Part shown: in pieces, positions 56,031-63,048 of the stretch | Layout of the letters: every line of letters starts with the position of its first letter | Numbering within the stretch: the first letter of the stretch is position 1 | DNA from: Streptomyces sp. NBC_01231 | GTDB lineage: Bacteria > Actinomycetota > Actinomycetes > Streptomycetales > Streptomycetaceae | Length of the DNA: 64,000 nt | NCBI GenBank assembly: GCA_035999765.1 | Contig: CP108521.1 | Span: 10,912,001-10,976,000 of the forward strand | Direction: 5' to 3' | Program-made: the position numbers and the translations under genes | Notes under the pieces: generated by a model | The model's input: only the letters and a program-made list of their open reading frames with translations | What the model was told of the DNA's origin: nothing | The model's database searches: none

Positions 56031-57997
56031 ATGACAGTGGATACTAAGGTCATCCGAGCCGGTCAGATGTACCGGTATACCTGCGCGAGACCGTTGTCGG
56101 TGACGGTCGGCGCCCGGCCCGCACGCCGCTGCGGGAGGCCCAGGAGCAAGCCGGTGTCCCGGCCGGGCGATGGATGGGGCGCGGCATGGCCGTGCTCGGA
56201 CTGGCGCCTGGCGAGGAAGTCACCGAGGCGCAGCTGCGCAACCTGTTCGGCGAACGCGGCCGGCACCCGTACGCGGACCGGATCGAGGCTGACCTGCTCG
56301 CCAAGGGCGCGTCGGCGAAGAAGGCGTTCAAGGCCGGCGCTCTCGGGCGGCGGGTGACGGTCACGGGCGTCGACTTCGTTTTCCGGTCGCAGCCGACGAT
56401 CTACCTGTTGTGGGCGTTGGGGGATGAGGAGACGCGGCGGGTGATCGAGGCCGCGCACGAGCGCGCGATCGAGCGGGTGCTGGAGTGGATCGAGGACGAG
56501 GTGGCGGTGATCCGGTACGGCAAGGACGGCATCTACCGGGTGCGGCCGCCCGGCGGTCTGGTCGCCGCGCGCTTCCGCCACTACGAGGCACGCTCGGGCA
56601 TGCCCTTGCTCCATGACCATCTGATTCTGTCCGTGAAGGGGCAGCGCCTGGACGGGAAGTGGGGTTCGATCCACACCTTGGCCTTGCACGAGAACACCGT
56701 GGCCGCCTCAGCGCTCTACAACGAGCTCGTGGCCGCTGAGGTCTGCGAGGCGCTGGGGCTGGCGACCGAGCCGCGCATCGTCACCGCCGAGCGTCGGCCC
56801 GTGATGGAGATTGCCGGGGTGCCGCACGAGCTGATCCGCTGGACCGCCCGGCGCAGCGACCAGATCGCCGCCTGCCTCGAGGACTTGGAGCACGAGTACG
56901 TCACCGCCGTCGACGACGACGGTGAGCTGAAGTTCCTGCCGGTGGTCTCGGAGCGGGCCCGCGCCAAGCTGAACGGGATGGCCGCCCGCAAGACCCGCCC
57001 GCCCAAGCGGAAGACCCGGCCGCTTGCGCAGCTGCGCAAGGAGTGGAAGGAGAGCGCCATTGCCACCTCCAAGGTGGCCGTCGGCATCATCAACTCCCTC
57101 CTCGAGTACGCCCGTGCCGCGGCTGCCGTGATCAGGGCCCGGGTCGCCGCCGTGGTCGACGTCGCCCTGGCGGCTGTCGATGTCGCTGCGACCGTGTTCG
57201 TGATGAACGAAGGCGGCCGCTTCCACCGCCGGCACCTGCTCGCTGAAGCCCGTCGCCACATCGCTCTCGTCCTGCGTGGCCGCCGCCGCGACCCCGGCCT
57301 GGACGACACAATCGTGGCCGCCGCCATCTCCACCCACTGCCTGGACATCAGCGAGCCGAAGACCGTGCGCGGCCTGGAGGCCGACTACCGCCTCTACACC
57401 GCCCGGTGGGCGCTGTCCGGCCTCCCCGCCCGGCGCCGCCCACCCACCCCCGCACCCGGCCCGGACTGGCAGCCCCCGGCCGATCCCGGCGAGCCGGCTG
57501 CGCCCCGGCCCCCGGGCGAGGACGCGGGGGAGTGGGAAGTACCCCGCATCCCGCCGCAGTACGAGCGAGCTGTCCTGGCCGGTGCGGTGGTGCGGGAGCA
57601 GCTGCGCACCACCACCGCCACCGCTACCGCTGTGCGGGGCCGGGCGTATGACGTCGTCGCGCACCAGCAGGCGGCGATGCCCGAGCAGCTGCTCGCGCCC
57701 GCGGCCGCCGAACCCGAGCGCGATGGCCAGGAGCCGGAGGCCGGACGCCGGGAGGCGATCGACCTGACGGCGCTGCGGGCATTGAGGGAGTCGCGCACGG
57801 ACGTGGAAGCCCTCGATCTCACGGACGAGTGGCTGCGCCACCTGCAGGACGCGTTCTCCAAGGCGGCCCGCACCCGCGCGGACCGCTATGCCGAACAGGA
57901 CGATGCCGAGGGAGCGCAGCCGGTGCGCCAGGACGACCAGCGGGCGCACCGCCCGCAGGAGCCCGGACCGCACCGCGGCCGGGAGGCCGGCCACTGA
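56031..57997 (+). pseudogene. MobF/TrwC-family relaxase, frameshifted near the start
   Basis: From ATG 56031 the frame reads MTVDTKVIRAGQMYRY, then shifts at about 56076. The next frame continues YLRETVVGDGRRPARTPLRE and AQLRNLFGERGRHPYADRIE to 57997. One extra T in CGGTATACC restores the protein (about 655 residues). The relaxase domain shows the ADRIE... VTVTGVDFVFRSQPTIYLLW block and the HxH metal pair in MPLLHDHLILSVKG. The C-terminal helicase domain of classical TrwC is absent; instead there is a helical middle and a Pro/Ala/Glu-rich tail. It would nick and carry DNA in conjugation. The second frame from ATG 56174 could make a protein without the N-terminus and its catalytic Tyr region. 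Confidence 0.75.
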
Positions 57998-58237: not shown

Positions 58238-59875
58238 GTGCGCACGCACAAGATCAGGATGGCCACGCTGTTGGTTTTGGCCGTCGGCGGTCTGACGTCC
58301 GCCAACTGCGGGATCGCTGTTGGCGATGACCCCGGCGCCGCCGCCACGGGCGGCTCCAGCACCGCCGGCGCCAACGTGTTCCAGCAGGACACCGCCCAAG
58401 AGAGCAAGCAGAACAACAACTGCTCAAATGAGAATTTTGACGTGACCCAGCAGCTGACGGACAGCAGAAGAGACGTGCGCTGTGTGACCGACGACGCGTC
58501 ATTCAATAAGCACGACCTGGTCGAGGATGGCGGGGCGCGCGCCGAGGGCGGCTCCAGCACCGGCGGCGGCGTGATCCAGCAGAACACCGCCCAGTCGGGG
58601 CGGCAGAACAACAACTGTGCCAACCCCAACTTCTCCTCCGTCTCCGCGAGTGGTGGTGGGCGGCAGGAGAGCGGGTGTGTGGACAAGGACGCCTCCCATG
58701 CCAAGCACAGCGTGGTCAAGGGCGGCGATGCGCGCGCCGAGGGCGGCTCCACCCCCGTCAACACCGTGGGTCAGCAGAACACCGCCCAGTCGGGGCGGCA
58801 GAACAACAACTGCGCCAACCCCAACAGCTCCAACGTCCCCGCGAGTGGTGGTGGGCGGCAGGAGAGCGGGTGTGTGAACAAGGACGCCTCCCATGCCAAG
58901 CACAGCGTGGTCAAGGGCGGCGATGCGCGCGCCGAGGGCGGCTCCAGCACCGTCACCCACGTGTTCCAGCAGAACACCGCCCAGTCGGGGCGGCAGAACA
59001 ACAACTGCGCCAACCCCAACAACTCCACCGTCTCCGCGAGTGGTGGTGGGCGGCAGGAGAGCGGGTGTGTGAACAAGGACGCCTCCCATGCCAAGCACAG
59101 CGTGGTCAAGGGCGGCGATGCGCGCGCCGAGGGCGGCTCCGCCGCCGGCAGCACCGTGTACCAGCAGAACACCGCCCAGTCGGGGCGGCAGAACAACAAC
59201 TGCGCCAACCCCAACCGCTCCGCCGCGGAAAGTGGTGGGCGGCAGGAGAGCGGGTGTGTGAACAAGGACGCCTCCCATGCCAAGCACAGCGTGGTCAAGG
59301 GCGGCGATGCGCGCGCCGAGGGCGGCTCCGCCGCCGGCACCGTGATCCAGCAGAACACCGCCCAGACGGGGCGGCAGAACAACAACTGCGCCAACCCCAA
59401 CACCTCCTCCGTCTTTGCGAATGGTGGTGGGCGGCAGAAGAGCGAGTGTGTGAACAAGGACGCCTCCCATGCCAAGCACAGCGTGATCAAGGGCGGCGAT
59501 GCGCGCGCCGAGGGCGGCTCCAGCACCGGCGGCAACGTGTTCCAGCAGAACACCGCCCAGACGGGGCGGCAGAACAACAACTGCGCCAACCCCAACGAAT
59601 CGACCATCGGGGTGACGGACTCGGACGCGGAGATCAGGTGCCTGACGGTCGATGAGTCCACGAACAAGGGCACCGTGGAGATCGGCGACGGTGCGGAAGC
59701 CGAGAGTGGCCGCAGTGCGCTGGATCTGTCCCAACAGAACACCGCGCAGTCGGGTCGGCAGAACAACAACTGCGGCAACCCCAACCATGTGACCCTCACG
59801 CCTACCGGCAGCCGCCATCAGGTACAGTGCACGGCCGTCGACCGGTCCACCAACATCGGCTCCGTCCACCGCTAA
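58238..59875 (+). CDS. secreted protein with eight cysteine-paired tandem repeats
   Basis: The 545-residue product has an N-terminal export signal (MRTHKIRMATLLVLAVGGLT, then SAN; cleavage near residue 22). The rest is eight repeats beginning at about residues 49, 114, 179, 244, 309, 371, 436 and 499, a period of 62-65. Each has QQNTAQxGRQNNNC, a variable strand, a second Cys 18-20 residues later, a D-x-S-x-x-K/N-H segment and a Gly-rich linker GGDARAEGGS. Cys pairs such as C127/C147 and C192/C212 suggest one disulfide per unit. Gln/Asn-rich QxGxQN cores recall curli-type beta-solenoids, but this is analogy only. GTG 58238 has GGGAG 6 nt upstream. A paralogous repeat protein follows. Confidence 0.85.
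   Translation: MRTHKIRMATLLVLAVGGLTSANCGIAVGDDPGAAATGGSSTAGANVFQQDTAQESKQNNNCSNENFDVTQQLTDSRRDVRCVTDDASFNKHDLVEDGGARAEGGSSTGGGVIQQNTAQSGRQNNNCANPNFSSVSASGGGRQESGCVDKDASHAKHSVVKGGDARAEGGSTPVNTVGQQNTAQSGRQNNNCANPNSSNVPASGGGRQESGCVNKDASHAKHSVVKGGDARAEGGSSTVTHVFQQNTAQSGRQNNNCANPNNSTVSASGGGRQESGCVNKDASHAKHSVVKGGDARAEGGSAAGSTVYQQNTAQSGRQNNNCANPNRSAAESGGRQESGCVNKDASHAKHSVVKGGDARAEGGSAAGTVIQQNTAQTGRQNNNCANPNTSSVFANGGGRQKSECVNKDASHAKHSVIKGGDARAEGGSSTGGNVFQQNTAQTGRQNNNCANPNESTIGVTDSDAEIRCLTVDESTNKGTVEIGDGAEAESGRSALDLSQQNTAQSGRQNNNCGNPNHVTLTPTGSRHQVQCTAVDRSTNIGSVHR
58382..59740 (+). repeat. 195-bp in-frame tandem repeats in the secreted protein gene
   Basis: Units start at about 58382, 58577, 58772, 58967, 59162, 59348, 59543 and 59732. 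Units 2-6 are nearly identical at DNA level, including silent sites (for example AAGGACGCCTCCCATGCC recurs unchanged), while units 1, 7 and 8 have diverged. This is a mark of recent internal duplication or gene conversion. All length changes are multiples of three. Confidence 0.85.
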
Positions 59876-60081
59876 ACGCCGCTCACCGCACCCCCAGCCG
59901 CAGCCGGCAACGGGCCCCACCCGACCACTTTCCCCGGGCGGGGCCGACTGCCTCTCTTCGCGAACCGTGACTTTTCACCCAGTGGGGCGTTGTTGATCGC
60001 GGCAAGGGCCGTCGCCGCGCGGGGAGCCACCCGGGACGGCGTTGCGGGACCCGACGGTGAGTGGTCAGGAGATCCGGACGT

Positions 60082-60930
60082 ATGAGACAGCGGGGACGGC
60101 ACGCGGCGCCGAATGCCAGGGCGCGGAAGATCCGCCGGGCGGCGGCCGTGGTGTTCGCTACCGGTGCGCTGGTCGGCGCCGGCAGCAGCAGCGCCTTCGC
60201 GGACATCCTGGAAGATGTCCCCTTGAACGGGGAGGAGAACACCGACCAGGCCGGGGCGCAGAACCTGTCCTGCGGCAACTCCGCCCGTCTGGTGCGGCTC
60301 AACGTCGCAGAGACGATGCACCGGGAACGGGTGTGCGTCGATGACGACGGCAGCACCCGCCACGACAGTGGCCATGCGGGCGGCGCCCAGGCCGTCGGGG
60401 GCACCACCCTCGGCCCTCAGATCAACACCGCCCAGACCGGCAAGCAGAACCTGACCTGCGGCAACTCCGCCGACCTGGTCACCGTCAACGTACTGGGCAC
60501 GATGAACTGGGACACCACCTGCATGGCCACCGACCACGGCAACCTCCCCCGCAGTGGCGGCCACGGCGAGTATGCGGGCGGCGCCCGCACCCTGGGCGGT
60601 ACCTCGGTCGGCCCGCAGGCCAACACCGCCCAGACCGGCAGGCAGAACCTCTACTGCGGCAACTCCTCCGACACCCTCACCGTCAACGTCGCAGGCACCA
60701 TCCGCAAGTACACCACCTGCGCCGCCATGGACCACTCCTCCCCGCACTCCGGCGACACCCACCGCGGCCGCGCTGCCGCCGACGCCGGCCAAGCCGTCGG
60801 ATTCGAGACCAACACCGCCCAGAACGGCCGCCAGAACCAGACCTGCGGCAGCCCCGGCACCGGCATCGAGATCCCCCTCGGCCAGACCGAACACAAAACC
60901 CGCTGCACCGTCCTCAACGACAACTCCTGA
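60082..60930 (+). CDS. secreted protein with four cysteine-paired repeats, paralogous to the upstream gene
   Basis: The 282-residue product has a clear signal peptide (basic start, hydrophobic AAAVVFATGALVGAGSSSA, cleavage after AFA at residue 40). Four repeats follow at about residues 53, 115, 181 and 244. The unit is NTAQTGKQNLTCGNSADLVT with a second Cys 20-21 residues later (C64/C85, C126/C147, C192/C213, C255/C275) and a Gly/Ala-rich linker GGAQAVGGTTLGPQ. It shares the NTAQxGxQNxxC[GA]N core with the protein at 58238 but is otherwise divergent. ATG 60082 has AGGAGA about 9 nt upstream. Function is unknown; surface, fibre or biofilm roles are guesses. Confidence 0.85.
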   Translation: MRQRGRHAAPNARARKIRRAAAVVFATGALVGAGSSSAFADILEDVPLNGEENTDQAGAQNLSCGNSARLVRLNVAETMHRERVCVDDDGSTRHDSGHAGGAQAVGGTTLGPQINTAQTGKQNLTCGNSADLVTVNVLGTMNWDTTCMATDHGNLPRSGGHGEYAGGARTLGGTSVGPQANTAQTGRQNLYCGNSSDTLTVNVAGTIRKYTTCAAMDHSSPHSGDTHRGRAAADAGQAVGFETNTAQNGRQNQTCGSPGTGIEIPLGQTEHKTRCTVLNDNS

Positions 60931-62373: not shown

Positions 62374-63048
62374 TCAGGTGGCGGCGGCGAGAGCGGCGGT
62401 CGGGGCGAGGAAGGAGCGGTCGGTCAGGCGGCGGGCGAGGTCGGCGATGGTCTGTCGCTTGTGGGGCAGCGGCGGTACGGCGGGTACGGCGAGTGCGGCC
62501 CACAAGGCGACGGCGGCCGCGCACATGGACATCACGGTGAACAGCAGGCGCAGGCTGCCCGCCCAGACCAGAACGCCGCCGAGGAGGGGGCCGAGGGTGT
62601 AGCCGATGGACTTGTAGAAGCCGTAACTGCCGAACGCGCGGCCCCGCTTGGCCGCCGGGTTGAGGCGGGCGACCATGGCGGAGGCTGAGGGCGAGAAGGC
62701 GGAGGCAGCGGCGCCCTGGCCCAGGCGGGCCGCCCACAGCCAGCCGGGACTGTCCGCGACCGCGTACAGCGTGGAGGCGGCGGCGAAGGCGATCAGACCG
62801 CCGAGGAGAACCGGCTTGCCGCCGATCCGGTCAGCGAGCGAGCCGAAGACCGGCTTGAGCACTATCTCGGCGCCGTCGTAGAGGGCGAGCAGACCGCCCA
62901 GGACCAGCAGTGAGGTGACCGCGTCCTCGGAGAACCCGCCGAGGTTGGCGGCGTGTGCGCCGAAGGCGGTGGTGAACCCGGCTGCGTACAGCGGCCACAT
63001 GGCCTGCTTCGCGGCGGCGGCCGGACCTATGGGCTGATGGCTCATCAC
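62374..63048 (-). pseudogene. N-terminal half of an MFS transporter
   Basis: The 224-residue frame encodes about six helices of a major facilitator: LYAAGFTTAFGAHAANLGGF, the loop 2-3 motif VFGSLADRIGGKPVLL, RLGQGAAASAFSPSASAMVA and KSIGYTLGPLLGGVLVW. It ends at LAPTAALAAAT, just where the second half should begin. Full-length relatives have about 400 residues, so the gene has been cut at 62374, possibly at the border of the plasmid-like segment. ATG 63045 and GTG 63048 are both possible starts. Confidence 0.7.

Follow-up and report, generated by a model that had tools for sequence, protein, structure and literature searches.

Two adjacent repeat-protein genes of Streptomyces sp. NBC_01231 form a candidate two-part beta-solenoid fiber system

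What is made by two neighboring genes whose products are both built from the same cysteine-pair repeat? We address this question for a gene pair of Streptomyces sp. NBC_01231, referred to here as genes 1 and 2, which lies in a stretch of 64,000 nucleotides (the window, bases 10,912,001-10,976,000 of a single-contig genome of 11,338,389 bp) about 0.37 Mb from one genome end. We tentatively favor the view that these genes encode the two parts of an exported beta-solenoid fiber system of Streptomyces, curli- or Fap-like in its working.

The repeat itself is well defined. Protein 1 contains eight matches to a unit profile built from 26 diverse units, with E between 3.7e-17 and 3.6e-25, and protein 2 contains four, with E between 2.2e-11 and 2.5e-24; these are the counts given in an earlier note made from the sequence alone. 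Regular-expression periods were 65, 65, 65, 65, 62, 65 and 63 residues in protein 1 and 66 and 63 in protein 2, where three units were detected in this way. The QxGxQN core of the note stands far above shuffled sequence: protein 1 has seven occurrences and protein 2 four, against shuffled means of 0.04 and 0.01 and a maximum of 1 in either case (500 shuffles). The note's cysteine spacing of 18-21 was recovered, being 18-20 in the first protein and 20-21 in the second. Overall, the profile recovered 1067 units from 157 proteins (counting the two of the window), with a unit length of ~63 residues and the consensus V-x-Q-Q-N-T-A-Q-E-G-R-Q-N-N-N-C-x-N-x-N-(~8 variable)-G-G-R-x-x-x-R-C-x-N-x-D-x-S-x-N-K-H-T-x-x-K-G-G-G-A-x-A-x-G-G-S-S, in which the variable stretch shows hydrophobic-polar alternation. 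Both cysteines are conserved in 1055 of the 1057 units with a letter at both columns; Q9, Q13, N14 and D41 (0.98-0.99) and A8, G11 and S43 (0.91-0.94) are also near-invariant. Covariation scores between invariant columns, such as 17-37, were treated as invariance artefacts and not used.

Units 2-6 of protein 1 are 81-90% identical to one another at the protein level, the remaining unit pairs of that protein 46-54%, the units of protein 2 34-56%, and units compared across the two proteins 27-44%; a tandem array at the DNA level was detected in gene 1 only. The unit profiles of the gene-1 and gene-2 families align with a profile-profile probability of 97.7% (E 2e-12), and the two genes are direct neighbors in eight of ten related loci. 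The comparison thus supports the suggestion, made in the earlier note, that they are an old paralogous pair kept side by side.

Open reading frame analysis confirmed both genes as adjacent forward-strand frames (Table 1). Gene 2 most likely starts at the ATG given there, its frame opening earlier with a GTG at 60061. Third-codon-position GC is 0.88 in gene 1 and 0.90 in gene 2, and the ratio of nonsynonymous to synonymous substitution rates among six gene-2 orthologues (0.35-0.74 across 15 pairs, NG86 method) suggests that gene 2 is constrained as a protein. No sigma-70 promoter or terminator was found in the 3.2-kb region scanned. The export signals proposed for both products hold up by eye, each N-terminus having the basic stretch, hydrophobic stretch and AxA/AxG site of a Sec substrate; protein 1 carries an extra cysteine, residue 24, inside its signal.

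AlphaFold2 predicted all-beta models for both proteins, with a predicted local distance difference test (pLDDT) score of 83.3 and a predicted template modeling (pTM) score of 0.86 for protein 1, and a pLDDT of 72.6 and pTM of 0.68 for protein 2. The best structural matches of the protein 2 model are the FapC and CsgA fibrils; among the viral structures of BFVD it had no match at E ≤ 0.001. One unit may form one wide Greek-key layer, following the alignment with FapC, or two narrow rungs, following a 29-residue covariation offset. The curli-like stacking proposed in the earlier note is supported only by prediction; sequence profiles, in a comparison of little power, join the proteins to neither curli nor Fap.

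Querying 5.8 billion proteins gave lists of 47 for protein 2 and 110 for protein 1, the window's own included in each; when 14 divergent members served as queries, 70 proteins were listed and 15 of these had not appeared before. For protein 1 and for the divergent queries, scoring was confined to about 8,000 candidates. Every relative with an organism name is a Streptomyces, some metagenome-derived ones being nameless, and the most divergent members as queries returned no relative named outside the genus. The family is rare and patchily distributed: it was found in two of 295 sampled Streptomyces genomes and in one of 394 genomes (137 genera) searched across the class, the window's own genome being among the former and the sole case in the latter. 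Weak members may be missed in such genome searches because few first-look candidates were scored per genome (8, 21 and 15). A collection of 84,980 species held at least 10 loci from nine named genomes, a lower bound since the search patterns were drawn from gene 2 only. In the window's genome, all 12 units found by the profile lie in genes 1 and 2.

Across the family, the long protein varies in unit number and is multiplied in some strains, while the short one mostly has four units. Profile counts were 3 to 13 units in gene-1 proteins (n = 110, fragments included) and four in 41 of 47 gene-2 proteins, with three in the other six. By hand count, 39 of the 110 gene-1 clusters carry the name of Streptomyces sp. 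NPDC051776, 13 to NPDC048639 and 9 to NPDC047108, some being partial or on short contigs. This is a strong lineage-specific expansion, and no gene-2 cluster is listed under NPDC051776 or NPDC048639. In the ten fetched loci, the paired genes are on the same strand with gene 1 first in four (L036-L039) and divergent in four (L040, L041, L043 and L044); L042 ends at a contig edge and comes from the same strain as L044, and L035 has gene 2 alone, with gene-1 type frames elsewhere in that genome. Further strains show the pair as consecutive locus tags (e.g., AB0H86_37870/37875 and ABZ016_20750/20755). When neighbors were compared with each other, none besides the pair was common to more than three of the ten loci. 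Multi-domain IPT/TIG proteins adjoin the divergent pair in L040 (4453-6852, reverse strand), L041 (10859-11533, reverse) and L044 (612-1682, reverse), the domain being confirmed by Pfam for L040 and assigned by similarity in the other two; these are a possible cell-surface partner. A short single-unit frame in L043 (4727-4942, forward), ~4 kb from the pair, is perhaps the remnant of another gene-1 copy. In P0157, from Streptomyces sp. NPDC051636, an annotated transposase has these units as its second half, through either a gene-1 insertion or an assembly join.

In the fiber model that we prefer, each unit would consist of beta strands, the QxGxQN segment forming a tight arc, and the units would stack into a rod. 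With no capping domain after the last unit, the ends of this rod are predicted to be bare. Once the proteins have been exported by Sec, these ends would join, so that the long protein polymerizes on the cell or spore surface, and the short protein would start or anchor the fiber. The cysteines, near-invariant and paired, would be oxidized outside the cell and clamp each unit. We infer the steps from rod to polymer and from cysteine pair to disulfide.

The same solenoid could instead be a monomeric, disulfide-clamped rod that does not polymerize, serving as an adhesin or spacer at the surface or in the matrix, with its length tuned by unit number. We consider this rather unlikely, although the protein 1 model is at least as similar to ordinary beta-helices as to amyloids, and the range of 3 to 13 units, the hydrophilic character of the proteins and the TIG-domain proteins beside the pair would all suit it. 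Neither end has a capping domain, no sortase motif or membrane anchor was seen by eye, a partner of fixed unit number is left unexplained by such a rod, and the protein 2 model is closest to amyloid fibrils.

A more skeptical view holds that the solenoid is an AlphaFold2 artefact and that the proteins are secreted, low-complexity, largely flexible Gln/Asn/Gly-rich matrix proteins cross-linked through cysteine or by transglutaminase. AlphaFold2 has a bias for near-perfect repeats, according to an excerpt of PMC11795689, and both proteins are hydrophilic (grand average of hydropathy -0.62 and -0.98) and high in Gly, Asn and Gln. However, the units of protein 2 share only 34-56% identity, and pLDDT is nevertheless 76-91 in most ten-residue blocks of the repeat region. 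The near-invariance of Q9, G11, Q13, N14, C17, C37 and D41 over 1067 units is unlike that of flexible linkers, and the covariation pattern also speaks against this view, which we judge improbable.

How close the pair stands to curli and Fap was examined by sequence. Neither protein matched the Pfam Curlin_rpt model in a scan to E 1. Excerpts of PMC10192328 describe curli repeats as ~23 residues long with QX10Q and N-x5-Q-x-G patterns; these two patterns occur in neither protein, and a degenerate curli pattern from that source occurs zero times in protein 1 and three times in protein 2 (shuffled mean 0.51, maximum 4). Alignment by hhalign was not significant against curlin and gave a probability of 0.1-0.2% against FapC, whose profile comprised three repeats only. 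As a curlin-FapC control also failed (0.7%), this test says little on a shared fold, and this comparison of little power gives no support for counting the pair among curli or Fap. Curli units span ~23 residues, and E. coli CsgA lacks cysteine, as do the FapC repeats inspected. Fap repeats number nearly always three and, in FapBC, span 38-39 residues; here each ~63-residue unit bears a cysteine pair and there are 3-13 units. No fapABCDEF-like operon was seen among the ten loci, whose neighbors were compared mutually with no Fap-profile search made, and no shared operon extends beyond the gene pair. The combination of a fixed minor and a variable major protein resembles that of Burkholderiaceae curli, in which CsgB has mostly five repeats and CsgA 3-14, as given in part of PMC12822426. 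By the tests run, the pair is a member of neither system, and that it nonetheless works like a two-part solenoid fiber of the curli/Fap type is a proposal we place slightly short of even.

Streptomyces also has surface amyloids of its own, the rodlins and chaplins. The rodlins RdlA and RdlB are likewise secreted products of paired Streptomyces genes with GxxNxxC at the first cysteine, and an amyloid determinant just before that cysteine (an excerpt of PMC5314377) can be listed as a shared trait; they differ in being a single short domain. A resemblance seen by eye (GxxNxxC and CxxxS) first suggested rodlin membership, which was dropped after hhalign. That the family is a diverged branch of the rodlins is highly improbable, since, for all the GxxNxxC at the first cysteine and ENST after the second in extracted rodlins and the nearly exclusive occurrence of two secreted Streptomyces gene pairs in the genomes checked, the rodlin profile NF041022 matched neither protein to E 1, hhalign gave probabilities of 1.7% and 0.9%, and rodlins have by eye one cysteine pair and more hydrophobic segments. 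Chaplins are secreted Streptomyces amyloids too, and many have two cysteines about 20 apart; they are hydrophobic and short, and the ChpA-C profile (PF03777) matched neither protein in the Pfam scan to E 1.

At E ≤ 1e-10, 210 of the 295 Streptomyces genomes sampled matched the rodlin profile and 85 did not; an initial sample had 43 of 61 matching. Among the ten distinct genomes carrying the family (eleven entries, two identical by hit coordinates; completeness stated for two entries), only one has rodlins, compared with 210 of 293 after removal of the two family carriers from the sample (Fisher's exact p 1.2e-4), while chaplins are present in all ten. Rodlins are described as readily lost in an excerpt of PMC4255298, and as needed for spore hitch-hiking on motile bacteria in one of PMC8397704. 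The family, nearly exclusive with rodlins and curli-like in predicted structure, is a direct candidate for the coat of rodlin-less spores, where it might, more speculatively, form a fibrous sheath of spores or aerial hyphae together with chaplins; this step, too, we infer from rodlin absence.

Two points call for caution. The parallel in repeat number with curli is not general, as neither subunit varies in enterobacterial curli (4 and 5) or in Fap (3 and 3) according to part of PMC12822426. When 30 genomes (10 family carriers and 20 hand-picked others, of which eight have no rodlins) were placed on an rpoB tree, the family came out scattered, with seven changes needed, and over five independent pairs rodlin presence was opposite in 2.1 on average, the same in 0.2 and without difference in 2.8; the direction of the exclusion holds, but the few pairs and the hand-picked rodlin-less controls weaken the test.

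Streptomyces is not known to have an outer membrane that could house a CsgG-type channel. If the pair forms fibers, an actinomycete would have a solenoid amyloid of the curli type that dispenses with the curli secretion channel and has disulfides absent from E. coli CsgA and FapC repeats; it would also be a possible biomaterial scaffold. A broader claim would credit a Gram-positive actinomycete with a third beta-solenoid fiber system besides curli and Fap, with Sec-only export, one disulfide per 63-residue unit, a variable-length subunit and a fixed four-unit nucleator, replacing rodlins on the spores of scattered Streptomyces, the subunit gene reaching dozens of copies in some strains and giving many fiber kinds; we regard this as unlikely in its entirety. 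A claim to be the first in a Gram-positive was dropped because curli or Fap operons are reported even in Bacillota in part of PMC12822426.

The earlier note knew no named family for these proteins, and this stands: no valid match was found in Pfam, NCBIfam or PDB sequences. A Pfam scan to E 1 returned only GlyL_C, the C-terminus of viral glycoprotein L, on protein 1 (28.7 bits against a cut-off of 21) and a sub-threshold LRRCT_2 on protein 2. The GlyL_C match was taken as spurious because it covers 20 residues with a score summed over repeats; the same label, probably spurious, is also precomputed in the database for the window protein and two gene-1 relatives (P0058 and P0072). NCBIfam gave no match to E 1, and the unit profile matched only two flavodoxins among PDB sequences (E 3.5-3.6), judged to be chance. 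In the copies of Pfam and NCBIfam that were searched, no model is dedicated to these proteins, and a viral Pfam model mislabels one of them. Judged by titles and the opening lines of abstracts, none of the open-access papers listed on Streptomyces concerned these proteins.

Table 1. Coordinates of the gene pair and its parts within the window.
Feature	Position	Strand	Basis
Gene 1, long repeat protein, 545 aa, GTG start, eight units, presumed major subunit	58238..59875	+	Open reading frame, profile, homologues, AlphaFold2 model
Export signal, protein 1, residues 1-29, cleavage near AVG/DD (homologues AFA/D)	58238..58324	+	By eye
Protein 1 unit 1, residues 46-109	58373..58564	+	Unit profile
Protein 1 unit 2, residues 111-174	58568..58759	+	Unit profile
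Protein 1 unit 3, residues 176-239	58763..58954	+	Unit profile
Protein 1 unit 4, residues 241-303	58958..59146	+	Unit profile
Protein 1 unit 5, residues 306-366	59153..59335	+	Unit profile
Protein 1 unit 6, residues 368-431	59339..59530	+	Unit profile
Protein 1 unit 7, residues 433-495	59534..59722	+	Unit profile
Protein 1 unit 8, residues 496-545, C-terminal, no domain after	59723..59872	+	Unit profile
Tandem array in gene 1, recent, period 195 bp, 5.5 copies, 90% matches	58535..59596	+	Tandem-repeat detection
Gene 2, short repeat protein, 282 aa, ATG start, four units, presumed nucleator or anchor	60082..60930	+	Open reading frame, profile, homologues, AlphaFold2 model
Export signal, protein 2, residues 1-40, AFA/D	60082..60201	+	By eye, alignment
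Protein 2 unit 1, residues 49-110	60226..60411	+	Unit profile
Protein 2 unit 2, residues 110-177	60409..60612	+	Unit profile
Protein 2 unit 3, residues 176-239	60607..60798	+	Unit profile
Protein 2 unit 4, residues 239-282	60796..60927	+	Unit profile

Upstream of the pair lies a MobF/TrwC relaxase gene (window 56174-57997, forward strand), whose N-terminus looks truncated or broken because the start of the profiles is unmatched (matches begin at 30 of 286 and 45 of 299). It had suggested that the pair is cargo of a plasmid or conjugative element, an idea rejected as neither protein matched anything in 72,556 plasmid records and the related loci have no similar relaxase frame. Downstream, a 224-aa frame of a major facilitator superfamily transporter (window 62374-63048, reverse strand) covers only positions 15-187 of the 347 of MFS_1 and is probably a truncated gene.
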